DNA from: Desulfurellales bacterium
GTDB taxonomy: Bacteria > Campylobacterota_A > Desulfurellia > Desulfurellales > Hippeaceae
Assembly (NCBI GenBank): GCA_027064065.1
Contig: JAMOQJ010000083.1
Coordinates: forward strand, 1 to 37,902
Length of the DNA stretch: 37,902 nt
Direction of reading: 5' to 3'
The notes under the pieces are model-generated. The model saw only the letters and a program-made list of their open reading frames with translations. It did no database searches and had not been told where the DNA came from. Below are positions 24,905 to 37,808 of the stretch, piece by piece; the first letter of the stretch is position 1, and the number at the start of each line of letters is the position of its first letter. Position numbers and translations under genes: made by a program.

Positions 24905-25349
24905 ACCGACACTTAACGACGTTGAGAGTATACAATCCATAATAAACGAATTTGCCAAAAAAAAAGATATACTGCCAAGAAACATTGAAGATGTAGCAGA
25001 AAGGATAAGGGAATTTATTGTAGCAAAAGATAATGATACAGTTGTGGCTATTAGCAGTTTAAGACTTTACTATCCGTTTTTAGCAGAAATAAGAACCATT
25101 GCGGTCAAAAACGAATATCAAGGACAGGGTATAGCAAAAAGGTTGATAGAATACGAGATTGAAGAAGCCAAACGGTTAGCGGTGAAAAAGGTTTTCGCAT
25201 TAACATTTCAACTTAAATTTTTCGAAAGCGTGGGTTTTAAACTGATAGACAAAAAACAACTACCTCAAAAAAAAATTTGGGAAGATTGTGTTAATTGTCC
25301 GTTTTTTCCTGATTGCAAGGAAGAAGCGGTTATTAAATACCTGGATTAG
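24888..25349 (+). CDS. argA: Single-domain GNAT N-acetyltransferase, probable N-acetylglutamate synthase
   Basis: A 153-residue GNAT enzyme of the short ArgA type that lacks the amino-acid-kinase-like domain. Evidence is ARTIA-like LAEIRTIAVKNEYQGQGIAKRLI (about 63-85) for acetyl-CoA binding, ALTFQLKFFESVGF, and the conserved tail WEDCVNCPFFPDCKE with three cysteines, which I associate with this NAGS group. It would make N-acetylglutamate for arginine synthesis. TTG start with GAGG 6 nt upstream, inside hisD. It ends the operon tail to tail with the WecA-like gene, the two stop codons overlapping. Confidence 0.8.
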   Translation: MIKIDKPTLNDVESIQSIINEFAKKKDILPRNIEDVAERIREFIVAKDNDTVVAISSLRLYYPFLAEIRTIAVKNEYQGQGIAKRLIEYEIEEAKRLAVKKVFALTFQLKFFESVGFKLIDKKQLPQKKIWEDCVNCPFFPDCKEEAVIKYLD

Positions 25350-26428
25350 CCCAAAATTGTTCCTATCTTAAATCGCACAATTGCAAGGTAAAACCATACA
25401 TAAAAGATACAAAACAGCACGCTAAATAACATTAAAATCAACGTATTTTGCCAAAACATAACGGCAGGCAGAACGCTCATGGAACACAAAAACCATAAAA
25501 AAGGTGATGTTGCCGAGTTTCTTGCCAATTTTTCGTCTCTTTTAATATCGTAAAAATGCGGGACAACTCTATCATATATAAGTTGATGCAAATGAAACGA
25601 ATCTGGTTTTTGAGCACTCCTTTTTTTTAGCCTTCTCCTATACATAGAAAACAGCGTTTCAAAGACAGGATATATTACAAGCAGCATAGGAAACCAAGCC
25701 GATACATCAGGATGTCTATCTACGAGCAGTATAGATAACTCAGCTATGGAAAATCCTATAAAATATGCGCCTCCGTCTCCCAAGAATATCTTACCAAAAG
25801 GATAGTTTAAAAGAAAGAATCCTGCTACTGAACCTGAAAGTATCAACGATATATACAACACAAGATTATCGTGAACCTTGTGGCTTACATAGGCAATACC
25901 AAGCAAAATGAGCATTGTTACTATAGCAGCCAATCCATTATACCCATCAACAATATTGATAGAATTTGCCACACCGCTTACGGCAATTAATGTAAATAAA
26001 TATGCCAATATTTCAATAGATAAAAAATTATCCACAAAAGGCACATCCACTCTATGAAGCGTTGCACCCAAAAGCCACATACCTAAAACGGCAGAAAGTA
26101 TTGTAGATATAAGCCTTACCTCGGGTGATACTCTTTTTGTTAAATCTTCAATAAATCCCGATAAAAAAGCTGGAATAGATGCCAATAAAAAAAATATTAT
26201 ATCCTTATCTTTTTGGATATCAAAAAGTGCTAAATATATCAAAAAAGAAGATAAAAATATGCCCAATCCGCCGATTCTTGGCGTTAATCTGTCGTGAAAT
26301 TTTTGTGGACCAATATTAGAGTCAGCCGCAATATTCTGAACTCTTTTATTAGTAATAAAAAATCTTACTATTGAAAAGCAAAACAAAAACGATAATAAAA
26401 AAGCAAAGATTGTTAATTTTACAAGCAA
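25346..26428 (-). CDS. Undecaprenyl-phosphate sugar-1-phosphate transferase (WecA/MraY superfamily)
   Basis: A polytopic 360-residue membrane enzyme with about ten membrane segments. It should transfer a sugar 1-phosphate from a UDP-sugar to undecaprenyl phosphate, the first step of a surface glycan. Superfamily motifs are HDRLTPRIGGLGIF (45-58), SGFIEDL near 90, NIVDGYNGLAAIV near 157, FLGDGGAYFIGFS near 215 and the cytoplasmic DSFHLHQLIYDR near 276. WecA (UDP-GlcNAc) is the nearest named type, but specificity is uncertain. TTG start with AAGGAG 5 nt upstream. It follows the nucleotide-sugar dehydrogenase by 13 nt. Confidence 0.87.
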   Translation of the reverse strand: MLVKLTIFAFLLSFLFCFSIVRFFITNKRVQNIAADSNIGPQKFHDRLTPRIGGLGIFLSSFLIYLALFDIQKDKDIIFFLLASIPAFLSGFIEDLTKRVSPEVRLISTILSAVLGMWLLGATLHRVDVPFVDNFLSIEILAYLFTLIAVSGVANSINIVDGYNGLAAIVTMLILLGIAYVSHKVHDNLVLYISLILSGSVAGFFLLNYPFGKIFLGDGGAYFIGFSIAELSILLVDRHPDVSAWFPMLLVIYPVFETLFSMYRRRLKKRSAQKPDSFHLHQLIYDRVVPHFYDIKRDEKLARNSATSPFLWFLCSMSVLPAVMFWQNTLILMLFSVLFCIFYVWFYLAIVRFKIGTILG

Positions 26429-26441
26429 ACTATCTCCTTAA

Positions 26442-27716
26442 CTACAGCCTATCATCTACATACTCTTTATTAAAAAAGCCTTTTACATCGTATATAACCT
26501 GATTTGTATAACGTTTGTCTATTTTGCGTTTTATTTCATCAAACTCCTTATGGCCAACAGCAAGAACAATTGCATTATAATCATTTAGATTTTCATCTAT
26601 GTTGTTTATCAAATCCAAACCGTATTCTTTTTTCAGCTCATCTTTATCGGCTATCGGGTCAAATATATCTACGTTGCATCCAAATTCTTCAAGCTCTTTC
26701 ACTATATCCACAACCTTTGTATTTCTAACATCAGGGCAGTTTTCTTTAAAAGTTACGCCCAATATCAAAATCCTACTGCCTTTTACAGTATGGTCTTTCT
26801 TAATTAAAAGTTTAACAACCTTGTCAGCTACAAATTTTCCCATATTGTCGTTCATCCTTCTTCCAGCAAGGATAATTTCTGGATGGTATCCGATGGCTTT
26901 CGCTTTATAGGTAAGATAGTATGGGTCTACACCTATACAGTGTCCACCTACAAGGCCAGGCTTAAAGGGCAAAAAGTTCCACTTAGTTCCTGCAGCTTCT
27001 AATACTTCAAGCGTATCTATACCCATTTTGTCGAAAATCAAAGCAAGTTCGTTTACGAATGCTATGTTTATATCTCTTTGCGTATTTTCTATAACCTTTG
27101 CTGCTTCTGCAACCTTTATGGATGATGCTTTGTGCGTTCCAGCGTCGATAATGGATGCGTAAAGATTATCGATAAAATCGGCTATCTCTTCGGTTGAACC
27201 GGATGTTACCTTTTTTATTGTATTGACCCTATGTTCTTTATCGCCAGGATTTATTCTTTCGGGCGAGTATCCCACAAAGAAGTCTCTATTAAAAGCCAAT
27301 CCACTATTTTTTTCAAGTTCGGGAACGCAAACTTCTTCTGTACAACCTGGATATACGGTTGATTCGTATATGACTATATCGTTTTTTTTCAAAACACTGC
27401 CCACTGTTTTGCTGGCTGAAATTAACGGCTGCAAATCCGGATTTTTATATTCATCAATTGGTGTAGGCACTGTAACTATATATATATTTGCTTTTTTTAT
27501 ATCTTCAATATTGCTTGTGTATTCTATGGAAACCGATGCTAATTCTTTACTGTCGACTTCAAGCGTTCTATCTATGCCATCTTTTAAATCCTGCACCCTT
27601 TCCTTCTTTACATCAAAACCTATAACGTCATATTTCTTTGCAAAGGCTACAGCCAAAGGCAATCCCACATATCCAAGTCCTATTATACATATTTTTACTT
27701 TTTTTAAGCTAAACAT
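26442..27716 (-). CDS. Nucleotide-sugar dehydrogenase (TviB/WbpA-like, UDP-HexNAc 6-dehydrogenase)
   Basis: Oxidises a UDP-sugar to the UDP-uronic acid with two NAD, supplying acidic sugars for polysaccharide. The N-terminal [14 protein letters not shown] binds [14 protein letters not shown] is in the middle. [25 protein letters not shown] holds the catalytic cysteine. A C-terminal domain contains [15 protein letters not shown]. These stretches favour the UDP-N-acetylhexosamine branch (TviB, WbpA) over UDP-glucose dehydrogenase. An upstream ATG at 27737 would add seven residues, but AAGGGAG lies 5 nt before the ATG at 27716, so I start there (424 residues). It sits between the WecA-like and phosphohexomutase genes. 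Confidence 0.9.
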
Positions 27717-27785
27717 ACCAACTCCCTTTATAAACATCTACCTTAATCAGATACATATTTTCTCAATAAAAAGCTTAAGCAAAAA

Positions 27786-29189
27786 TTAGTCCAAAAAGTT
27801 GTTTAGTGCATCCATTGTTGTTTGTTTTAAGTTATCAAGATTGTCAAGACTGTTTGCTTCAAATCTCAAAACCAATGATGGCTGGGTATTGCTTGCTCTT
27901 ACCAAACCCCATCCGTTTTGTGTTTCAAATCTTGCTCCGTCGATTGTGTTTATATTGATTATATTTAGTTTTTCTCTATTATTCTCCAAATATTTTATAA
28001 ATCTATCCACGGTCGTTTTCTTTTTATCATCAGGACACTCTACCCTAATCTCGGGTGTGTTGAATGTTTTTGGCAACCTATTTTTCCATTCTACCAAATC
28101 TATCTTTTCCTTGGTCAATATCTCAAGCAATCTTATAGATGCGTATATGGCATCGTCATATCCAAAATATCTGTCGGCAAAGAATATATGTCCGCTCATT
28201 TCTCCTGCAAGCAGTGCTTTTTCTTCTTTCATTTTTGATTTTATTAGGGAATGCCCGGCTTTATACATTATAGCTTTACCGCCAGCCTTTTCTATACCAT
28301 CAAAAAGCACTTTGGAACATTTTACTTCGCTTATGATTTTTGCGTTTTTATTGTTTTTTATTACATCTTGGGCAAATAACAATAAAAGCTCATCTCCATA
28401 GAGCATTTCTTCGTTTTTTAAAACCACACCTATCCTGTCGGCGTCGCCGTCGTATCCTATACCTACATCGTATTCTTCATTTTTTACCGTATCTATTAAA
28501 ACCTTGAGATTTTCTTTGATTGTAGGGTCAGGGTGGTGATTTGGAAAATTACCGTCTGGCTCTATGAATAATCCCTTAACATCAAACCCCAATTCCTTTA
28601 TTATCTCAAAACCAACAAATCCACCCGCTCCGTTTCCACCGTCTAATACTGCGGATGGTTTGTTTTTATAATCTTTTAAATATCCGAACTGTTCTAAAAT
28701 ATAGTTTTTGTAGTCTTTTAGAATATCGTATTCTTTTACGGTGCCGTATTTTGAGTTTTGGGTTTTGTATCGGTCTAAATTTTTCATGATTTCCTTTACT
28801 TGCTGAATTTGAGAGCCGTATAGCGTTTCTTTGTTTAGACTCAACTTAAACCCATTATATTCTTTCGGATTATGCGATGCTGTAATCATAATTCCACCGT
28901 CAAGGGAGAGTTTAAATAGAGAAAAATATTGAACAGGCGTAGGAACCAATTTAAGATTAACTACATCTACGCCTTCTTTATTTAAACCTTCGGATAAACC
29001 TAAAAAGGCTTCTTGAGAAGACAGCCTTGCATCATAGCCGACACTTACTATAAGATTGTCTTTTTTTGTTTTTTCCTTTAAATAAACTGCAAAAGCCTTT
29101 CCTAAATCAACACAAAATTCTTTATTTATGTCTTTATTCCATACGCCCCTTATATCGTATTCTCTAAATATAGAATCGTTGATTGTCAT
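27786..29189 (-). CDS. Phosphomannomutase/phosphoglucomutase
   Basis: Alpha-D-phosphohexomutase, probably dual-specificity PMM/PGM as in AlgC, linking hexose 6-phosphates to nucleotide-sugar synthesis. Catalytic phosphoserine loop MITASHNPKEYNGFK near residue 99, metal loop GYDGDADRIG near 243, sugar-binding GEMSGHIFF near 327 and phosphate-binding RASNTQPSLVLRFE near the C-terminus. Length 467 matches AlgC. GAGGGGTG precedes the ATG and lies inside one arm of an inverted repeat that also encloses a promoter. Confidence 0.93.
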   Translation of the reverse strand: MTINDSIFREYDIRGVWNKDINKEFCVDLGKAFAVYLKEKTKKDNLIVSVGYDARLSSQEAFLGLSEGLNKEGVDVVNLKLVPTPVQYFSLFKLSLDGGIMITASHNPKEYNGFKLSLNKETLYGSQIQQVKEIMKNLDRYKTQNSKYGTVKEYDILKDYKNYILEQFGYLKDYKNKPSAVLDGGNGAGGFVGFEIIKELGFDVKGLFIEPDGNFPNHHPDPTIKENLKVLIDTVKNEEYDVGIGYDGDADRIGVVLKNEEMLYGDELLLLFAQDVIKNNKNAKIISEVKCSKVLFDGIEKAGGKAIMYKAGHSLIKSKMKEEKALLAGEMSGHIFFADRYFGYDDAIYASIRLLEILTKEKIDLVEWKNRLPKTFNTPEIRVECPDDKKKTTVDRFIKYLENNREKLNIININTIDGARFETQNGWGLVRASNTQPSLVLRFEANSLDNLDNLKQTTMDALNNFLD

Positions 29190-29194
29190 AAAAA

Positions 29195-29252
29195 CACCCC
29201 TCTTGTTTTTTAAAGCATTATAGCGTTTGAAAATAAAAAAACAAGAAAGGTG
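29195..29252 (-). promoter_or_regulatory. Inverted repeat enclosing a promoter before the phosphohexomutase gene
   Basis: Two 17-nt arms (29195-29211 and 29236-29252) pair at 15 of 17 positions around a 24-nt loop. On the minus strand the upstream arm begins right after the stop codon of the small rod-like gene. The downstream arm contains the ribosome site GAGGGGTG and is followed by five T and the ATG. The sequence could act as an imperfect terminator or hide the ribosome site on read-through RNA. Confidence 0.55.
29217..29244 (-). promoter_or_regulatory. Candidate promoter of the phosphohexomutase-dehydrogenase-WecA genes
   Basis: On the minus strand a consensus TATAAT (29217-29222) lies 16 bp downstream of TTGTTT (29239-29244). 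The -10 falls in the loop and the -35 in one arm of the inverted repeat. RNA starting here would contain only the second arm, so its ribosome site would stay open. Confidence 0.55.
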
Positions 29253-29564
29253 CTAAGCTTTTAAATCGATAATGCTGCCAATCATTTCGTTTTGGGTTTT
29301 TAAGACGTTTACGTTGGCTTTTTCCTGATTGACGTTGTTGAGTTGGGCAACCGTCTCGGTTACCAAATCGACGTTATTATTTTTATTGTTTGATGGTGCA
29401 TTTGTTTTTGTTACTATGCCTTCAACGCCTCCGCTTTTCGCTTCTTTGTTAATTACACCCTTTGCCTGATAGTTTTTCGTGTTGATATTGGCAACGTTGT
29501 TTGCAGCCACATCCTGTCTTAAAAACGCATTTTTTATTCCGCTTATAGAGGTATTAATATTCAT
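29253..29564 (-). CDS. Minimal flagellar rod/hook-type (FlgC/FlgG-like, D0-only) protein
   Basis: A 103-residue protein matching only the two ends of flagellar axial proteins. Residues 1-40 (ISGIKNAFLRQDVAANNVANINTKNYQAKG) carry the basal-body-rod N-terminal signature ANNVANxNTxxY. Residues 66-103 (DLVTETVAQLNNVNQEKANVNVLKTQNEMIGSIIDL) match the rod/hook C-terminal helix. The middle domain is reduced to about 25 Asn/Lys-rich residues. The two terminal helices could form a D0 coiled coil alone. It may be a rod, adaptor or assembly factor. No flagellar gene flanks it. GGGAGGTGG precedes the ATG. Confidence 0.75.
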   Translation of the reverse strand: MNINTSISGIKNAFLRQDVAANNVANINTKNYQAKGVINKEAKSGGVEGIVTKTNAPSNNKNNNVDLVTETVAQLNNVNQEKANVNVLKTQNEMIGSIIDLKA

Positions 29565-29585
29565 AAAACCACCTCCCTACTAAAT

Positions 29586-29613
29586 AGAATATTCTATGGC
29601 GCATAAAAGTCAA
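29586..29613 (-). promoter_or_regulatory. Candidate promoter of the rod-like gene
   Basis: On the minus strand TTGACT (29608-29613) and TATTCT (29586-29591) are 16 bp apart, close upstream of the gene. It resembles sigma70 sites. I see no sigma28 or sigma54 element, which would be more usual for a flagellar gene. Confidence 0.5.
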
Positions 29614-29688
29614 GAAAAACAGTTTAAATAGTAGAATTTTTTATTTAAAACAGGTATAAATACCACAAGACATTTTTACGGGGGAGTT

Positions 29689-30753
29689 ATGGGTGAAAAA
29701 GAGATAAAATTAAAAGAGATTAACTTTGATACGCCAATAGACCTAATCATAAACAACAATAAAATACCGCTAAAGTTTCAACACTGCAATTTTGAAAACT
29801 ATATACCGAACAAAGAGTATCCATCTCAACAAGAAGTAAAGGAAAGACTTATTACGTTTGTAAAATCTTTAGAAGAATACAATAAATCAAAGTGCTGTGA
29901 GACAATTGTAAAACGGCTATTTAAGAAAAATTCTAAACCCAAAAATATTTATATAGATGGTGGATTTGGCGTAGGCAAAACCCACCTTTTATCTTCAATA
30001 GGAAACGCATACAGCGGAAAGTCTATTTTTGTATCGTTTTCTGAATTGATGTATCTAATCGCCTACTTTAACCTTTTACCGCTTGTAGAAAAGATGTCGC
30101 AATTCGACGTTGTCTTGCTTGATGAGTTTGAACTTGACGATCCGGGTGATGCTATGATGGGCATAAACTTTATTAGAGAGATAAGCAATACCGATACTGT
30201 GGTTGTTACTACATCAAACACTACGCCTGTAGCCTTAGGTGGAAGAAAATTTGATTTGATGTTATTTAAAGAACGCATCGGTAAATTTGTCAACTACTTT
30301 AACACCTACGCCATAGACGGCAAAGATTATAGGGTAACGAAGGCTCCAAAAACAGAATACGATTCTTCCAAAAAAACACTTAAAGACCTGTTTAACGAAT
30401 ATGAGACCAAAAATAGAAAAAAACTTTATGTGAGTTTTGACGAACTGATAAATAAAATGAAAGAGATACATCCCGCAAGGTACGTAAACTTCAACGAAAA
30501 CATAGACGCAATATTCATAGAAAATTTGAGAAAATTTACAGACGACGAACTGCTTGACGCTTTAAGGTTTACCTATTTAATAGATATTTTATACTATGGG
30601 TCGGTCGATATATTCATTAGCACAGACATTCAACTATGGGATATGTTTTCTGAAGATTTAAAGGACGGCAAATTTAAAAACAAAATTATGAGATGTTTAT
30701 CGAGAATTTCAGAAAAGGGTGTATTTGTAAAAACACACGATATTGACAGTTAA
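29689..30753 (+). CDS. zapE: ZapE/AFG1-family ATPase
   Basis: A 354-residue AFG1-like P-loop ATPase. Walker A GGFGVGKTH (91-99, K97), Walker B VVLLDEFELDDPGDAM (141-156), sensor TTSNTTPVALGG near 178, and ERIGKFVNYFNTYAIDGKDYR typical of the family. In E. coli ZapE associates with the division ring under stress. In mitochondria AFG1/LACE1 relatives act in protein quality control. The role here is inferred from family only. GGGGGAG precedes the ATG at short spacing. It stands alone before ilvD, whose promoter overlaps its last codons. Confidence 0.85.
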   Translation: MGEKEIKLKEINFDTPIDLIINNNKIPLKFQHCNFENYIPNKEYPSQQEVKERLITFVKSLEEYNKSKCCETIVKRLFKKNSKPKNIYIDGGFGVGKTHLLSSIGNAYSGKSIFVSFSELMYLIAYFNLLPLVEKMSQFDVVLLDEFELDDPGDAMMGINFIREISNTDTVVVTTSNTTPVALGGRKFDLMLFKERIGKFVNYFNTYAIDGKDYRVTKAPKTEYDSSKKTLKDLFNEYETKNRKKLYVSFDELINKMKEIHPARYVNFNENIDAIFIENLRKFTDDELLDALRFTYLIDILYYGSVDIFISTDIQLWDMFSEDLKDGKFKNKIMRCLSRISEKGVFVKTHDIDS

Positions 30754-30771
30754 GAATTTTAGTAATATAAA
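30743..30771 (+). promoter_or_regulatory. Candidate sigma70 promoter of ilvD-leuS-lptE
   Basis: Consensus TTGACA (30743-30748), exactly 17 bp, then TATAAA (30766-30771). The -35 overlaps the last codons of zapE. It is the best consensus match in the window, about 30 bp before the ilvD start. Confidence 0.7.
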
Positions 30772-30800
30772 CAACTAATTTGATTTTAAAGGAGGAAAAG

Positions 30801-32468
30801 ATGGCAAGAAGAAGCGATATTATGTTAAAAGGAGCAGAGAGAGCTCCTCACAGGTCATTATTTAAAGCCGACGGTTATACGGATATAGAACTAAATAGAC
30901 CGATAATAGCTATAGCAAATTCATATAACACAATAGTTCCCGGACATGTTCATCTTCAAAGCATAGTAGAAGCCGTAAAATACGGTATATACATGGCAGG
31001 CGGAACGCCTATTGAATTTAATGTAATTGGTGTTGACGACGGAATAGCAATGGGGCATTTGGGCATGCACTACTCTTTGCCATCAAGAGAACTTATTGCT
31101 GATTCGGTTGAAACGATGGTAAATGCACATCCCGTTGACGGGCTTGTGATACTGCCCGCTTGCGATAAGATTGTTCCCGGAATGATGATGGCTGCCGCAA
31201 GGGTTAATATCCCATCTATTATGATTTCAGGCGGTCCTATGCTTGCAGGTAGATTTAACGGAACAGATATAGACTTAGCTCAAGTATTTGAAGCCGTAGG
31301 TAAATACCTTAACGGTGATATTTCAGAAGACGAATTAAGGGCGGTTGAAGAAATTGGATGTCCATCTTGCGGCTCATGTTCTGGTATGTATTCTGCAAAC
31401 TCGATAAATTGCATAAGCGAAGTATTGGGATTATCGCTTCCTGGAAACGGTACGATACCTGCTCCAATGGCAGCAAGAGTCAGGCTTGCCAAACTTGCCG
31501 GCATGAAGATAATGGAGCTTGTAGAAAAGGATATAAAACCGAGAGATATCTTAACCATAGATGCTTTTAAGAATGCCATATGCGCTGATATGGCTATGGG
31601 TTGTTCAACCAACACCGTTTTGCATCTTTTGGCTATAGCCCAAGAAGCCAAAGTAGACTTAAAGCTTGATATTTTCAATGAAATAAGTGATAAAGTGCCG
31701 GATTTATGCGCATTTTCACCGGTTGGACCATATCACCTTCAGGATTTGGACGAAGCAGGTGGTATGATGGCTCTTTTAAATAGAATTGACCCGCTTGGTG
31801 TATTAAATAGGGATTGCATCACAGTAACAGGCAACACAATTTACGAAAACTATAAAAATTCACGCGTATACAGGGATGAGGTTATAAGACCGCTCGACAA
31901 ACCTTACTATCCTAAGGGTGGATTGAGTGTTTTAAGCGGAAATTTAGCGCCGCATGGTGCTATCTTGAAACAGTCGGGCGTCGATACGACGATGAATCAC
32001 TTCGTAGGTAAAGCAAGGGTGTTTGATTCAGAAGAAGAAGCCTTAAAAGCAATTTTTGGTAAAGAGATTAAAAAAGGCGACGTTGTCGTAATAAGATACG
32101 AAGGGCCTGCAGGCGGACCTGGCATGAAAGAGATGTTGCAACCCACAAGTGCAATAGCCGGAATGGGTTTAGATAAGGATGTTGCTTTGATTACTGACGG
32201 TAGATTTTCTGGCGCAACAAGAGGATTGTCCATAGGCCACATATCTCCTGAAGCCGCAAGAGGCGGTTTGATAGGGCTAATAAAAGAAGGCGATGAAATT
32301 GAGATAGATGTCGATAAAAAGACCATAAATCTGCTTGTTGATGAAAAAGAGATAGAAGAAAGAAAGAAAAATTTCACTCCTAAGAAACCAAAAATAGATT
32401 ACGGATGGCTTGCAAGATATGCTAAAATGGTAGGCCCTGCCCACAAGGGCGCAATACTGGAGTATTAA
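30801..32468 (+). CDS. ilvD: Dihydroxy-acid dehydratase
   Basis: Penultimate step of valine/isoleucine synthesis, an iron-sulfur dehydratase. C121 in [14 protein letters not shown] and C193 in [15 protein letters not shown] are the expected cluster cysteines. [12 protein letters not shown] (75-86) and [20 protein letters not shown] are also typical. Near residue 45 the sequence reads PGHVHL rather than having a cysteine, as I recall for the oxygen-labile [4Fe-4S] E. coli type. I start at ATG 30801 because AAAGGAGG lies 5 nt upstream. An upstream TTG at 30780 would add seven unlikely residues. Length 556 is normal. Confidence 0.96.
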
Positions 32469-32482
32469 CGGAGGAAGAAAAG

Positions 32483-34927
32483 TTGTGTAAATATAATCCA
32501 GCAGAAATAGAAGAAAAATGGCAAAAGGTTTGGGAAGAAAAAAAGGTTTTTCAAGCTGTTGATTTTGATAAAAAACCTAAGTTTTATCAACTTGAAATGT
32601 TCCCATATCCGTCTGGTAGAATACATATGGGACATGTCAGAAACTACTCCATTGGCGACGCTATAGCAAGATATAGATGGATGCAGGGCTATAACGTATT
32701 GCATCCAATAGGATTTGACGCATTCGGTATGCCTGCGGAAAATGCAGCCATTGCCCACAAAACACATCCTGCAAAATGGACATATGAAAATATAGATTAC
32801 ATGATTAAAGAATTAAAAAGGCTTGGCTTTTCATACGATTGGGATAGACTGATTGCAACATGTGATGCCGAATATTACAGGTGGGAACAGAAGATTTTTA
32901 TAGAGATGTTTAAAAAGGGCATGGTATATAGAAAAAAAAGCAGTGTAAATTATTGCCCTACCTGTCAAACGGTTCTTGCAAACGAACAGGTTGAAGATGG
33001 CAAATGCTGGAGATGCGGCGACGATGTCGTTCAAAAAGAACTTGACGAATGGTTTTTTAAAATAACCGACTATGCCGACCAGTTGCTTGACGATATGAAA
33101 CTTATAGAAAAGGGTTGGCCGGCAAAGGTTTTAACTCAGCAAACAAATTGGATAGGAAAGTCAAAAGGCGCCTTTGTTAAATTTAAGATAAAAGGAACAG
33201 ACGAATATCTCGAGGTGTTTACCACAAGGCCTGATACGCTTTTTGGTGTAACATTTGCTTCTATTGCACCTAACCATCCTAAACTAATAGAGCTTGTTCC
33301 AAACGATTATAGGGATAGGGTGGAAAAATTCGTAGATGAATACAAAAAAACAGAAAGGGATTTTTCAAAGGAAAAAGAAGGCGTATTTACCGGCATATAC
33401 TTGATAAATCCCGTAAACAATAAAGAAGTCCCGTTATATGCGGCAAACTTCGTCTTGCTTGAATATGGAACAGGTGTAGTAATGGCAGTACCTGCTCACG
33501 ACGAAAGGGATTTTGAATTTGCTCAAAAATACGGACTGCCCAAACAACTTGTTATATACAAAGAAGGCATGCCCAATAATGCTGACGAACTAAAAGAGGC
33601 ATATACCGAAGATGGCATACTTGTAAATTCCGCTCAATTTGACGGTATGAAAAACGAAGATGCCAAATGGAAGATAGTTGAGTGGTTGTCGTCAAAAGGA
33701 TTGGCAAGGCAAACCTATCAATATAAGTTAAGAGATTGGAACGTATCAAGACAGAGATATTGGGGTGCACCAATTCCTGTTGTTTATTGTGAACATTGCG
33801 GAATAGTGCCTGAAAAGGAAGAGAATTTACCTATAAAGTTACCCGAAAACGTTGAAATAACGGGAGAAGGCGGCTCTCCTTTGGCAAAAGTAAAAGAATT
33901 TGTCGAAACGACCTGTCCAATATGCGGCAGAAAAGCAAAAAGAGAGACGGACACATTTGATACCTTTGTAGAATCTTCATGGTATTTTTTAAGGTATTGT
34001 TCGCCCAAATACGATAAGGACATATTTGAAAAGGATAGGGCGAACTATTGGATGGACGTTGAGCAGTATGTGGGCGGCATCGAACATGCCGTTATGCATC
34101 TTCTTTATTCAAGATACTTTACAAAGGTTTTAAGGGATTTGGGTTATGTGGATTCCAGCGAGCCGTTTAAAAGACTCTTGACTCAAGGAATGGTCATAAA
34201 AGACGGCGCAAAAATGAGCAAATCTAAAGGCAACGTTGTTGACCCGGATGATATTATAAAAAATTACGGCGCCGATACGGCAAGATTGTTTATACTGTTT
34301 GCGGCACCGCCGGAGAAAGACCTTGAGTGGTCGGATGATGGCGTAGAAGGCGCATATAGATTTTTAAACAGGCTTTGGAGATTGGTTTTAGCTCACAAAG
34401 ACTTAAAAGCAAAAAAAATTGAAGCAGATACAGATAGACTAAAAGAACTGTCTTATATGATTAACAATACAATAAAAAGGGTGAGCGAGGATTTTGAACA
34501 CTACCACTTCAATACAGCTATAGCGGCATGTATGGAGCTGGTCAATTTTATGCAAACGTTCAACCCTAAAGACGATAAGGAAAAGGCGCTTTTTGCATAC
34601 GGACTTGAGAAACTCTTGATTTTGTTAAGCCCGATAGTTCCGCATATCACCGAAGAGCTGTGGGCAATTATCGGACACAACAATTTGATAGAAAAGGAAG
34701 TTTGGCCTACATACGAAAAAGATGCTTTGGTTAAAGATAAAGTTACTATAGCAGCAACCGTAAACGGAAAGTTAAGAGACACGGTAGAAGTAGAGACAGA
34801 CGCCGAACAAGACACAGTTTTGGATATAGCCCTAAAGAGCCCTAAGGTTCAAAAACATATTGAAGGCAAAGAGATAAAAAAGGTTATATTTGTGAAAAAC
34901 AAATTGATAAATATAGTGGTAAAGTAG
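32483..34927 (+). CDS. leuS: Leucyl-tRNA synthetase
   Basis: A class I synthetase charging tRNA-Leu. HMGH (48-51) in PYPSGRIHMGHVRNYSIGDA is the HIGH motif. The zinc-type CPTC...CWRC segment follows near 155-180. The CP1 editing domain shows TTRPDTLFGVTF near 248 and GTGVVMAVPAHDERDFEFA near 330. KMSKSKGN is near 577. The C-terminal tRNA-binding part is intact. Length 814 is typical. The start is TTG (MCKYNPAEIEEKWQ) with GGAGG 8 nt upstream. The only overlapping ATG/GTG codons are out of frame. Confidence 0.97.
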   Translation: MCKYNPAEIEEKWQKVWEEKKVFQAVDFDKKPKFYQLEMFPYPSGRIHMGHVRNYSIGDAIARYRWMQGYNVLHPIGFDAFGMPAENAAIAHKTHPAKWTYENIDYMIKELKRLGFSYDWDRLIATCDAEYYRWEQKIFIEMFKKGMVYRKKSSVNYCPTCQTVLANEQVEDGKCWRCGDDVVQKELDEWFFKITDYADQLLDDMKLIEKGWPAKVLTQQTNWIGKSKGAFVKFKIKGTDEYLEVFTTRPDTLFGVTFASIAPNHPKLIELVPNDYRDRVEKFVDEYKKTERDFSKEKEGVFTGIYLINPVNNKEVPLYAANFVLLEYGTGVVMAVPAHDERDFEFAQKYGLPKQLVIYKEGMPNNADELKEAYTEDGILVNSAQFDGMKNEDAKWKIVEWLSSKGLARQTYQYKLRDWNVSRQRYWGAPIPVVYCEHCGIVPEKEENLPIKLPENVEITGEGGSPLAKVKEFVETTCPICGRKAKRETDTFDTFVESSWYFLRYCSPKYDKDIFEKDRANYWMDVEQYVGGIEHAVMHLLYSRYFTKVLRDLGYVDSSEPFKRLLTQGMVIKDGAKMSKSKGNVVDPDDIIKNYGADTARLFILFAAPPEKDLEWSDDGVEGAYRFLNRLWRLVLAHKDLKAKKIEADTDRLKELSYMINNTIKRVSEDFEHYHFNTAIAACMELVNFMQTFNPKDDKEKALFAYGLEKLLILLSPIVPHITEELWAIIGHNNLIEKEVWPTYEKDALVKDKVTIAATVNGKLRDTVEVETDAEQDTVLDIALKSPKVQKHIEGKEIKKVIFVKNKLINIVVK

Positions 34928-34928
34928 C

Positions 34929-35438
34929 ATGAAAATAGTTAGATTTTCAATTTTAGCAGTTGTGTTTGTGTTATTGAATTCATGCGTTTATCATTTTGCA
35001 GGTAAGTATGCGAGTCTACCAGGCGGCATAAGAACAGTTTATATAGATAGCATAGAAAACTTGACATACGAACCGAACCTACATGTAAAACTTAAAAAAT
35101 ACCTTTTAGATGAACTCAACCTTGATACGAGAGTTAAGCTCACAAACAAAAACGATGCGCAGGGTCTCATTGAAGTAAAAATAACAAAATACAATATATC
35201 TCCATCAGCATTTGACAAAAGCGGTTTTGCGTCTATGTACAGATGCTTTGTTGTCGCCACCGTATCTTTAAAGAACTCAAAAGGGTATGTAATTAAAAAC
35301 AAAAGTGTAAGTTCTTACAAAGATTACAGTTCCAACGACTTAATATCCGCAACCGAGATAGCAAGGAACAGTGTTTCAAACTACGTTTTAAAGGATTTGG
35401 CTTCAAAGATAAAGGATGAACTGTTTGTAGGTTTTTAA
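34929..35438 (+). CDS. lptE: LPS-assembly lipoprotein LptE
   Basis: A 169-residue outer-membrane lipoprotein expected to plug and support LptD in LPS export. The signal peptide ends in a lipobox LLNSC, with lipidated C19. The mature part starts VYHFAGKYASLPGGIRTVYIDSIENLTYEPNL, the typical LptE opening with a YxFxG pattern and IPxFxN-like strand. Immediate linkage to leuS (1 nt) matches the leuS-lptE pair of many Gram-negatives. Sequence identity in this family is low, so gene order carries part of the call. Confidence 0.83.
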   Translation: MKIVRFSILAVVFVLLNSCVYHFAGKYASLPGGIRTVYIDSIENLTYEPNLHVKLKKYLLDELNLDTRVKLTNKNDAQGLIEVKITKYNISPSAFDKSGFASMYRCFVVATVSLKNSKGYVIKNKSVSSYKDYSSNDLISATEIARNSVSNYVLKDLASKIKDELFVGF

Positions 35439-35453
35439 CAATACAGGTTTGCA

Positions 35454-37016
35454 ATGTTTATATCAAAGCCCATTTTGATTTTTATAGGCTTTATGTACAT
35501 TGCAGGCCTTTTTTTTCATCTGGGATATAAACCTTTTAATAGCAAAGAATCAAAATATGCCATAGCTTCAATAGAGAGTTCGTACAATTCAAACTATTTA
35601 AATCCATCGGTAATAGGAAAACCTTTCATAGAGCACCCGCCTTTATATATAATATTGGAGTCTCTCATATTTCATCTAACAAAACCGTCTGAATTCTCAG
35701 CAAGATTGATAAGTGTATTCTCTTTTTTAGCTATAGGATGGCTTATACAAGTTTCTATATTGGATATTGTTGGTTTTGAAGCCTCACTCTTTGCCGCCGT
35801 TGGTTTTTTGGTATCGTTTGGTATATACTATTCGATATCGGCAACACCCTACGCGCTCTTTTCGTTTTTTATCTTTTTGTCTATGATAAGTGTGTTTTTA
35901 TTCGAAAAAAGTGGGGTTTTGGTAGGATGTATATTAACCTTCTTGGCATTTTCAACATACGGTTTTTCTTCCTTTGTATTTTTCTATCTATTTTTACTTG
36001 TATACGGATATTTAGATAGCAAAGCGAGACAATATATACTCTCAAAAGAACACCTGCTTGGCATAATAATTTCACTCTTTGCAATGGTTTTGTATTTTCT
36101 TTTGATATCTAAAGGCAATATTCACAAAATAAACTATATTTTGGGTTTTTTTATTATTATACCTTTCAAAAATCTTCTATCTTCAATGTCTATTTCTAAT
36201 GTTTTAACACATTCCATAACCTCTCTGCTTAAAGCTTTTTACTATTCTTTACCGTTTTCTTTCATATTTTTCACCCTATTTAAAAAAGAATTTAGAAGCG
36301 AATTTATATTCTTAATTAAAGATAATAAAAGAATAAAAAGGTTAATCGTATTTTTGACTTCCGCTTTTTCGCCAAATTTCTTTCTTTTTTCTTTTCTGCC
36401 CAATACCGAATTTGACACGTATGTATGGCTTGTAGCTTTTATGGCAATGTTTGCAGGTGTTTTGTTTTATGAAGTAGAGTATATGGAAACTTTGTTTGAT
36501 TTCAAAAAAATTGCATATATCGCTTTTTTTGCGTTTTTTATTTTATCACTATTTTGCTTTATATTTGATTTGGAATTCATAAACTCTAAAGACTACCTTA
36601 TCTTGGGCGCTATTCTTATCGTTTCAGTTATATTTTTTCCTATTGTTAAACGCATTCAAGATAATCTCAGCGCTATGTTTGTATTGCTTGTGCTTTTGTC
36701 TATACTATGCAAATTCCTTTACTCTTCATCTTATGTTGCCTACATTAAAAATTATCAAAGGGATTATGAGAAATATGCCAACGGCATAGCCAGAATTGTT
36801 TTGAAAAATAAACCCGAATATGTTATGAGTGATGGTGGAAATTTAAAGCTCTTTTTTTATTTGGAAAGAAAATTAAAGATGCCTATTTACTCTTTTAAAA
36901 ACAACAGATACGGTATAGTCATAACAAAAAACAGACAACGGGTTGCAATACTAAAAGGAGCTATTGATACGCCAAACGGCGTTTATTATATAGGAATAAA
37001 AAACGGAGGTGTTTAA
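35454..37016 (+). CDS. GT-C fold membrane glycosyltransferase (ArnT/PMT-like)
   Basis: A 520-residue protein with about a dozen membrane segments and a small soluble C-terminus. The first periplasmic loop, FNSKESKYAIASIESSYNSNYLNPSVIGKPFIEHPPLYI (about 27-65), matches the ArnT/PMT family pattern, where lipid-linked sugar donors are used. The acidic pair normally at the start of this loop (DE before xRYA) reads KE here, so the family's metal/catalytic Asp is missing by eye. It might transfer a sugar to LPS or protein, or be degenerate or differently arranged. It follows lptE by 15 nt. Confidence 0.72.
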   Translation: MFISKPILIFIGFMYIAGLFFHLGYKPFNSKESKYAIASIESSYNSNYLNPSVIGKPFIEHPPLYIILESLIFHLTKPSEFSARLISVFSFLAIGWLIQVSILDIVGFEASLFAAVGFLVSFGIYYSISATPYALFSFFIFLSMISVFLFEKSGVLVGCILTFLAFSTYGFSSFVFFYLFLLVYGYLDSKARQYILSKEHLLGIIISLFAMVLYFLLISKGNIHKINYILGFFIIIPFKNLLSSMSISNVLTHSITSLLKAFYYSLPFSFIFFTLFKKEFRSEFIFLIKDNKRIKRLIVFLTSAFSPNFFLFSFLPNTEFDTYVWLVAFMAMFAGVLFYEVEYMETLFDFKKIAYIAFFAFFILSLFCFIFDLEFINSKDYLILGAILIVSVIFFPIVKRIQDNLSAMFVLLVLLSILCKFLYSSSYVAYIKNYQRDYEKYANGIARIVLKNKPEYVMSDGGNLKLFFYLERKLKMPIYSFKNNRYGIVITKNRQRVAILKGAIDTPNGVYYIGIKNGGV

Positions 37017-37808
37017 ATGGGTGAATTAAACGAAAAAGTCATATCTAAGGCAATAGTTGAAAGATACATGAATAAACTCATGGATTATCTTGAAAACGAC
37101 GTAAGTATAGTAGGCGGTGGTCCGGCTGGACTTGTCTGTGCTTATTATCTTGCAAAAAAAGGCGTTAAGGTTGCCGTTTTCGATAAAAGACTAACCATCG
37201 GTGGCGGTATGTGGGGCGGAGCTATGTTTTTTAATGAAATAGTAGTTCAAGATATTGGTAAAGCCATTCTTGATGAATTTGATGTAAATTACGAACAATA
37301 CACAGACGGTTATTATACTGCAGATGCTGTAGAGACTACAACAACGCTTATATCCAAGGCAGTAAAAGCCGGCGCTAAAGTCTTTAATGCCGTAGAAGTG
37401 GAAGATGTTCTCTTTAAAAAGATTGGCGGTGAATATAGGGTGAACGGCCTTGTTGTTGGGTGGACAACAATGTATATGGCTCATCTTTTAGTTGACCCGC
37501 TTGTAATAACCAGCAAATATGTCGTTGACGCAACAGGACATGATGCCGATGTAGCAAGTGTTTTAACAAAGAAAGGCGGGGTAAAATTAAATACGGAATT
37601 TGGTGATGTTGTTGGAGAAAAACCTATGTGGGCAGAGGTTGGAGAGCAATCCACAATTGAGCAAACAAAAGAGGTATATCCCGGCCTTGTAGTCGCCGGC
37701 ATGGCAGCAGTCGCTGTTAGCAGATCTCATAGAATGGGACCGGTTTTTGGCGGAATGCTTAATTCGGGTAAAAAGGCAGCAGAACTTATACTTGAAAAAC
37801 TAAAATAA
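37017..37808 (+). CDS. thi4: Thi4-type thiazole synthase (sulfide-dependent, prokaryotic)
   Basis: A 263-residue FAD/NAD-binding protein of the THI4 family, forming the adenylated thiazole of thiamine from NAD and glycine. VSIVGGGPAGLVCAYYLAKKG (29-49) is the dinucleotide motif. IGGGMWGGAMFF (61-72), VDATGHDADV and the C-terminal SRSHRMGPVFGGMLNSGKKAA are family marks. Yeast THI4 donates sulfur from a Cys just before MDP. Archaeal enzymes have His there. Here the segment is AHLLVDP with Leu158, so this cannot be the suicidal cysteine type and probably uses free sulfide. GGAGGTG precedes the ATG. Confidence 0.9.
   Translation: MGELNEKVISKAIVERYMNKLMDYLENDVSIVGGGPAGLVCAYYLAKKGVKVAVFDKRLTIGGGMWGGAMFFNEIVVQDIGKAILDEFDVNYEQYTDGYYTADAVETTTTLISKAVKAGAKVFNAVEVEDVLFKKIGGEYRVNGLVVGWTTMYMAHLLVDPLVITSKYVVDATGHDADVASVLTKKGGVKLNTEFGDVVGEKPMWAEVGEQSTIEQTKEVYPGLVVAGMAAVAVSRSHRMGPVFGGMLNSGKKAAELILEKLK

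Follow-up and report, generated by a model that had tools for sequence, protein, structure and literature searches.

The minus-strand gene at positions 29,253 to 29,564 of the window (the whole stretch of DNA analysed, 37,902 nucleotides) encodes a protein of 103 residues, P0001, which, judged from its sequence, is a bare D0-type relative of the flagellar rod and hook proteins, homologous to them at both ends. The gene is real and under purifying selection. Short D0-only proteins of this type are widespread and associated with flagellated genomes, not every one of which carries them. We tentatively propose, with slightly less than even confidence, that P0001 is a conserved single-gene flagellar accessory protein that would probably act by D0-D0 contact, a mechanism that we infer, and that it is not an ordinary exported rod subunit.

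The Gene and Its Product

ORF search and translation of the window give an intact minus-strand frame of 103 codons starting with an ATG at 29,564, with orthologues in 17 of the 19 genomes of two families. The original prediction of a 103-residue D0-only rod-like protein is therefore borne out. This prediction also held that both terminal signatures are kept. At the N-terminus, residues 3–33 (ANNVANINTKNY; 29,466 to 29,558, minus strand) indeed match PF00460 (Flg_bb_rod, Pfam) with 28.3 bits for a cut-off of 20.7 (E 1.7e-6), and the genome scan returned the same stretch. At the C-terminus, a Flg_bbr_C-like helix covers residues 64–101 (29,262 to 29,375, minus strand), but in P0001 taken alone the PF06429 match stays below the cut-off (14.7 bits for a cut-off of 23, E 0.022) and is backed by profile comparisons. 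The cut-off is passed by all seven other short proteins scanned (L020, L133, L145, L149, L152, L154, and L156). A profile built from 18 relatives matches the solved structures of FlgE (3.3e-9), FlgG (9.8e-9), and FlgC (2.2e-8), and its printed alignments with FlgE and FlgG span both the N- and the C-terminal stretches. The conserved motifs of the short proteins are ANN-AN and N-V-D-L. Between the two ends, the linker (residues 34–63; 29,376 to 29,465, minus strand) contains a GGV sequence and is devoid of the F-x-x-x-hydrophobic gate-recognition motif, the sole phenylalanine of P0001 being residue 14. An AlphaFold2 model computed with 7 sequences has helices at residues 4–29 and 64–102 with a coil between them, at low confidence (pLDDT 53, pTM 0.22).

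P0001 scores below every rod/hook family cut-off of NCBIfam. The best model is TIGR01396 (FlgB), with 27.4 for a cut-off of 59.05 and through the N-terminus only; the FlgC model TIGR01395 gives 21.6 for a cut-off of 102.1. One relative, L133, is just above the cut-off of TIGR03506 (FlgEFG_subfam; 70.4 for 70.25). Among solved structures, the profile ranks FlgE and FlgG as the nearest relatives. With these two proteins and FlgF, all built from PF00460 and PF06429, P0001 has in common the N-terminal ANN-AN motif and the C-terminal NVDL helix. Unlike them, it is devoid of D1 and of any further domain, carries no gate-recognition motif, and has no place in a rod/hook operon.

FlgB and FlgC (about 130–140 residues) resemble P0001 in being small, with two terminal helices and no large middle domain. 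The presumed FlgB (131 residues) and FlgC (137 residues) of the host genome are no exception, so that P0001 misses only about 30 linker residues as compared to them. Hence, the loss of a middle domain, as initially claimed, is correct with respect to FlgG and FlgE but reduces to those 30 residues with respect to FlgB and FlgC. P0001 further differs from FlgB and FlgC by the missing motif and by its location apart from the host flgB-flgC-fliE genes. FliE, the MS-ring/rod adaptor of about 100 residues, has a similar length and no outer domain. However, the presumed host FliE (97 residues, encoded next to flgC) is not among the Flg_bb_rod matches and carries FGDIL at residue 28, unlike P0001. As in the other members of the short D0-only group, P0001 is encoded by a single ORF (about 90–135 residues in the group) having both D0 ends and usually lying outside flagellar clusters.

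Conservation, Selection, and Origin

Short orthologues are present in 14 of the 16 genomes of the window's family, the other two being 76% and 81% complete, and in the three genomes of the second, sister family of the order. They are absent from families f4 (0/3, FliG being found in two of these genomes) and f3 (0/3, with no FliG found); G020 and G022, two sister genomes that are flagellated, are devoid of the short gene. The genome G016, listed as 100% complete, has two copies of 92 and 103 residues (L055 and L052) in differing contexts.

The reading frame is open in all 17 carrying genomes. Among the 34 printed pairs made from 11 orthologues, the nine with a finite dS have dN/dS values of 0.02–0.17, dS often exceeding 1. 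It was stated beforehand that a degraded fragment, absent or interrupted in relatives, would undo the prediction; since the orthologues are conserved and open with low dN/dS, this explanation is rejected. More precisely, a truncated or decaying, functionless copy of FlgG, FlgF, or FlgC would account for the short length, and truncation is a known route to paralogues, but the open frames, the dN/dS values, and the position of the short proteins in a tree make it very improbable. In this tree of 84 columns, FlgC, FlgE, FlgF, FlgG, and FlgK group together (support 99/95), apart from 20 short proteins and four longer paralogues. A single clade of the 20 short proteins is neither rejected (AU p 0.117) nor demonstrated, in a data set of 84 columns and long branches. 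FlgB is found among the Desulfurellales short proteins on a branch of length 3.35, a position that probably reflects long-branch attraction.

Upstream of the start codon, a ribosome-binding site (GGGAGGTGG; 29,569 to 29,577, minus strand) is read from the sequence, and a similar purine-rich site precedes nearly all orthologues, as judged by eye. A promoter scan gives a candidate sigma-70-type promoter, TTGACT-16-TATTCT (29,586 to 29,613, minus strand), the number of sites not being above that in shuffled sequences. When the best layout is taken for each of 17 regions upstream of orthologues, 11 show a TTGA hexamer, a spacer of 16–17, and a TATTNT-like hexamer, a count made without a chance control. 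Neither sigma-54 nor sigma-28 patterns were found in the 17 orthologue upstream regions (a set that leaves out L052), and the possibility of a late (sigma-28) gene was accordingly discarded, if only tentatively. Sigma-28-like matches occur just before start codons on the flagellar loci L114 and L118, with a loose pattern that has many other matches, including in the window.

Host Genome and Gene Neighborhood

The window corresponds to the complete contig C83, part of a 1.53-Mb genome of the Desulfurellales, an order placed in Campylobacterota by NCBI. As predicted, the gene stands apart from other flagellar genes, the other rod-type genes of the host all being on other contigs. From their length, order, and sequence, these and associated genes are taken as encoding FliE, FlgB, FlgC, FlgF, FlgG, two FlgE-type proteins, and FlgK; FlhA and FliG are also present. 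Because the rod, hook, and FlgK-type set looks complete, P0001 appears to be an extra protein. The idea of a substitute for a missing rod protein was rejected, since the rod and hook positions look filled by other genes.

The gene is followed, 63 bp downstream, by a phosphoglucomutase/phosphomannomutase gene (27,786 to 29,189, minus strand; Pfam) and is divergent from a gene for a ZapE/AFG1-type ATPase (29,689 to 30,753, plus strand; family scans). Both neighbors were judged to be outside the system. Nineteen other ORFs of the window were scanned (131 to 24,904 and 25,346 to 37,808). They are mostly housekeeping genes, among them those for SecG, triosephosphate isomerase, GAPDH, GlnD, histidinol dehydrogenase, IlvD, LeuS, LptE, and Thi4. 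An ORF of 520 residues (35,454 to 37,016) has no Pfam match and is kept beside thi4 in eight relatives.

The original prediction pointed out the polysaccharide genes nearby. That they matter is not supported by comparison with the relatives. Phosphoglucomutase also follows the short gene in G001, G003, and G006 only. In genus g5, the short gene is located downstream of thi4 in eight carriers and is followed in seven of the eight by a small convergent gene, encoding desulfoferrodoxin in the one case scanned (G005). In three loci of family f2, it adjoins a transporter-sized gene, identified as EamA in the two that were scanned. Thus, the neighbors change between genera, the polysaccharide setting is incidental, and membership of a polysaccharide operon was rejected. 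Directly upstream of one of the G016 copies lies a YjfB-like gene (L052:8392-8667; PF14070, E 0.0035, below the cut-off).

Relatives in Other Phyla and Link to Flagella

The survey comprised 386 genomes, 25 from the window's phylum (all listed in the window's class) and 361 others. A single profile (E 1e-6) detected short relatives in at least 8 of the 361 genomes outside the phylum (G055, G116, G252, G271, G304, G332, G361, and G383), a lower bound. Hence, the supposition that the protein is peculiar to the flagellum of this lineage is not supported. FliG is found in six of these eight carriers and FlhA in the other two. In G116, the short gene follows the gene for FlgM and is near genes resembling flgL and flgK; the ORF upstream of the short gene in G383 looks similar to that in G116. 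In G252, a gene with a flagellin N-terminus is nearby.

The phylum of G332, which may be Desulfobacterota, was surveyed more broadly. At least 88 of its 345 genomes have a full-length short match, these 88 being rows picked among the matches listed, down to E 2.2e-15. All 88 were read as sequence. The last 56 sequences (from 55 genomes) resemble the short proteins, some with a linker 10–30 residues longer, and none is FlgC-like when set beside four FlgC controls. Among the matches listed, carriers represent 81 of 209 FliG-positive vs. 7 of 136 FliG-negative genomes (Fisher p 9e-14, with genomes counted as independent despite their kinship); 128 of the 209 FliG-positive genomes have no short gene among these matches. 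Of the seven FliG-negative carriers, three (G613, G390, and G721) encode FlhA together with several rod-type proteins. In the other four (G612, G426, G454, and G621; L172-L175), an intact short protein is the only Flg_bb_rod match and neither FliG nor FlhA was found. G612 is 100% complete, and three of the four marker-less carriers are less than 95% complete.

These four genomes bear on whether the protein has a non-flagellar role, for instance as a regulator or in scaffolding an envelope structure, and simply happens to be frequent among flagellated bacteria. The gene contexts, which are mostly scattered and apparently non-flagellar (neighbors being judged mainly by eye), would fit such a role. 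Indeed, in 28 of the 30 loci fetched, those with usable context (L146 and L147 being excluded), the neighbors look non-flagellar by eye except in G726. In this genome, an overlapping YjfB-like gene is found upstream (L154:1815-2078; E 1.2e-5, just below the PF14070 cut-off). However, only four of at least 88 carriers are without FliG, FlhA, or another Flg_bb_rod match, three of them incomplete as noted above, FliG-positive genomes are enriched in carriers, and a recent flagellar loss leaving the gene behind would give the same picture. We consider a non-flagellar role unlikely. Similarly, the suggestion that the protein serves another secretion structure received no positive evidence, even if the four genomes leave room for a role outside the flagellum.

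A plasmid of Azospirillum ramasamyi encodes a protein of 134 residues (WP_111068137.1) among genes without flagellar annotation. A member of the short family, a relative used as query instead of P0001, matches it end to end with 31.7% identity. A tblastn search of plasmids with P0001 itself gave 13 weak matches, the best with an E of 9e-3. The Azospirillum protein, annotated as “flagellar basal body rod C-terminal domain-containing protein”, is like P0001 in being encoded by a stand-alone gene, in another phylum and under a generic name. A short protein of this kind is therefore already in the public record; judged by title, no paper on stand-alone D0-only rod/hook proteins was found in the literature searched.

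Gate-Recognition Motif and C-Terminal Export Signal

According to PMC8983047, rod and hook subunits are unchaperoned and carry their own export signals. Early subunits dock at FlhB via a gate-recognition motif, residues 39–43 in FlgE, and their C-terminal signal includes I376, R380, and Y382 (PMC8983047 and PMC10936197). Sequences were searched for the motif 12–36 residues after the ANN motif, its usual place being about 16 residues after ANN, or about 30 in FlgC. The form used, F-x-x-x-hydrophobic, is our assumption, a wording that is not found in the text of PMC8983047.

The motif is present in 22 of 27 FlgB, FlgC, FlgE, FlgF, and FlgG proteins vs. 6 of 108 short proteins, the mean for shuffled short proteins being 9.7. 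Widening the stretch to 12–42 residues raises these counts to 23 of 27 and 8 of 108. The rows in these counts and in those of the signal residues below are related and hence not independent. The host itself has an FlgE-type protein carrying FVDVL. None of the 12 Desulfurellales short proteins tested, P0001 included (12 of 18 known copies), has the motif. The five rod/hook proteins without it comprise two FlgC, one with a motif just outside the stretch, and three FlgF from the window's order. More precisely, the FlgF proteins of Desulfurellales lacking a strict motif are L113, L115, and L131 (from G000, G016, and G005), while those of G116, G271, and G332 have one. The six short proteins bearing the motif come from five genomes of family f27 (G459, G492, G718, G573, and G548) and from G452; the corresponding loci are L213, L215, L219, L222, and L240 for f27, and L232, the other 102 short proteins having no match. 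Four of the six read FDAVL, FEAAM, or FEAAL, resembling a genuine motif. Longer stand-alone FlgF/FlgG-like paralogues of about 240–256 residues also exist (L025, L070, L073, and L074; L069 is a split frame), and the four with an intact frame have no gate-recognition motif either. In G029 and G316, such a longer paralogue is located near a similar-looking gene.

Two residues of the C-terminal signal are also altered in the short proteins of the window's order. At the site equivalent to R380, none of the 12 Desulfurellales short proteins has an arginine vs. 18 of 20 FlgC, FlgE, FlgF, and FlgG rows, FlgB having none in three. At the site equivalent to Y382, an aromatic residue is found in one of the 12 vs. 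20 of 20. The short proteins of G332's phylum have R at the 380 site in 15 of 29 cases and an aromatic residue at the 382 site in 22 of 29.

Because FlgF of the order and one or two FlgC are devoid of a strict motif, and because FlgB lacks R380, the absence of the motif is no proof of non-export. The main alternative to an accessory protein is a minor subunit of the axial structure, exported by a different route. Such a D0-only adaptor, ring, or plug would occupy a junction or the inside of the proximal rod, the need for FlhB docking being bypassed or relaxed. The solved homologues are axial proteins, the ANN-AN and N-V-D-L motifs are conserved, the genes are associated with FliG-positive genomes, and the f27 proteins have a docking-like motif. 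On the other hand, the motif is matched in so few short proteins, two C-terminal signal residues are altered in the order as well, no locus read belongs to a rod operon, and many flagellated relatives do without the gene. We regard an axial piece as possible, if rather doubtful, and the rod subunit, adaptor, or plug put forward at the outset is weakened, insofar as the gate-recognition motif is usually missing.

Proposed Role

Returning to the accessory protein that we tentatively favor, P0001 would be a rod/hook-family protein of which only the D0 helices and a short linker are left, and which is added to a complete rod/hook set. It might bind the D0 segments of unchaperoned rod and hook subunits, or the place on the export machinery that receives these subunits, a step that we put forward with some reserve, and as part of the same binding step it would tune early assembly from inside the cell. 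From the features above, a location inside the cell seems more likely than that of an ordinary exported subunit. Counted in favor of the accessory role are the homology at both ends, the conservation, the selection, the association with FliG, the missing motif, the altered R380 and Y382 sites, the YjfB-like gene upstream in two lineages (both below the cut-off), and the FlgM gene upstream in G116. Counted against it are the absence of the gene from most flagellated genomes sampled, the four carriers without flagellar markers, the six short proteins with a motif match, and the C-terminal signal residues often kept in G332's phylum.

A known protein offers a partial parallel. FlgV, found in spirochaetes, Firmicutes, and Epsilonproteobacteria, is likewise a small flagellar accessory protein with a wide and patchy distribution. 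In contrast to P0001, which has D0 signatures and sits apart, it has two transmembrane helices and is encoded in flagellar operons (PMC11607428).

Extended to the whole family, the short proteins might form a widespread further rod/hook class, made of bare D0 proteins mostly without the FlhB docking motif. Acting as a D0 chaperone or decoy, they would remain intracellular and, through D0-D0 binding, govern the assembly of the unchaperoned early subunits; in this general form, we hold the idea to be rather unlikely. A D0 protein that usually has no docking motif would be either a missing cytoplasmic partner of the rod and hook subunits or the sign of an alternative route of axial export. Finally, the four carriers that appear to be non-flagellate bear on whether the D0 module was taken into another use.
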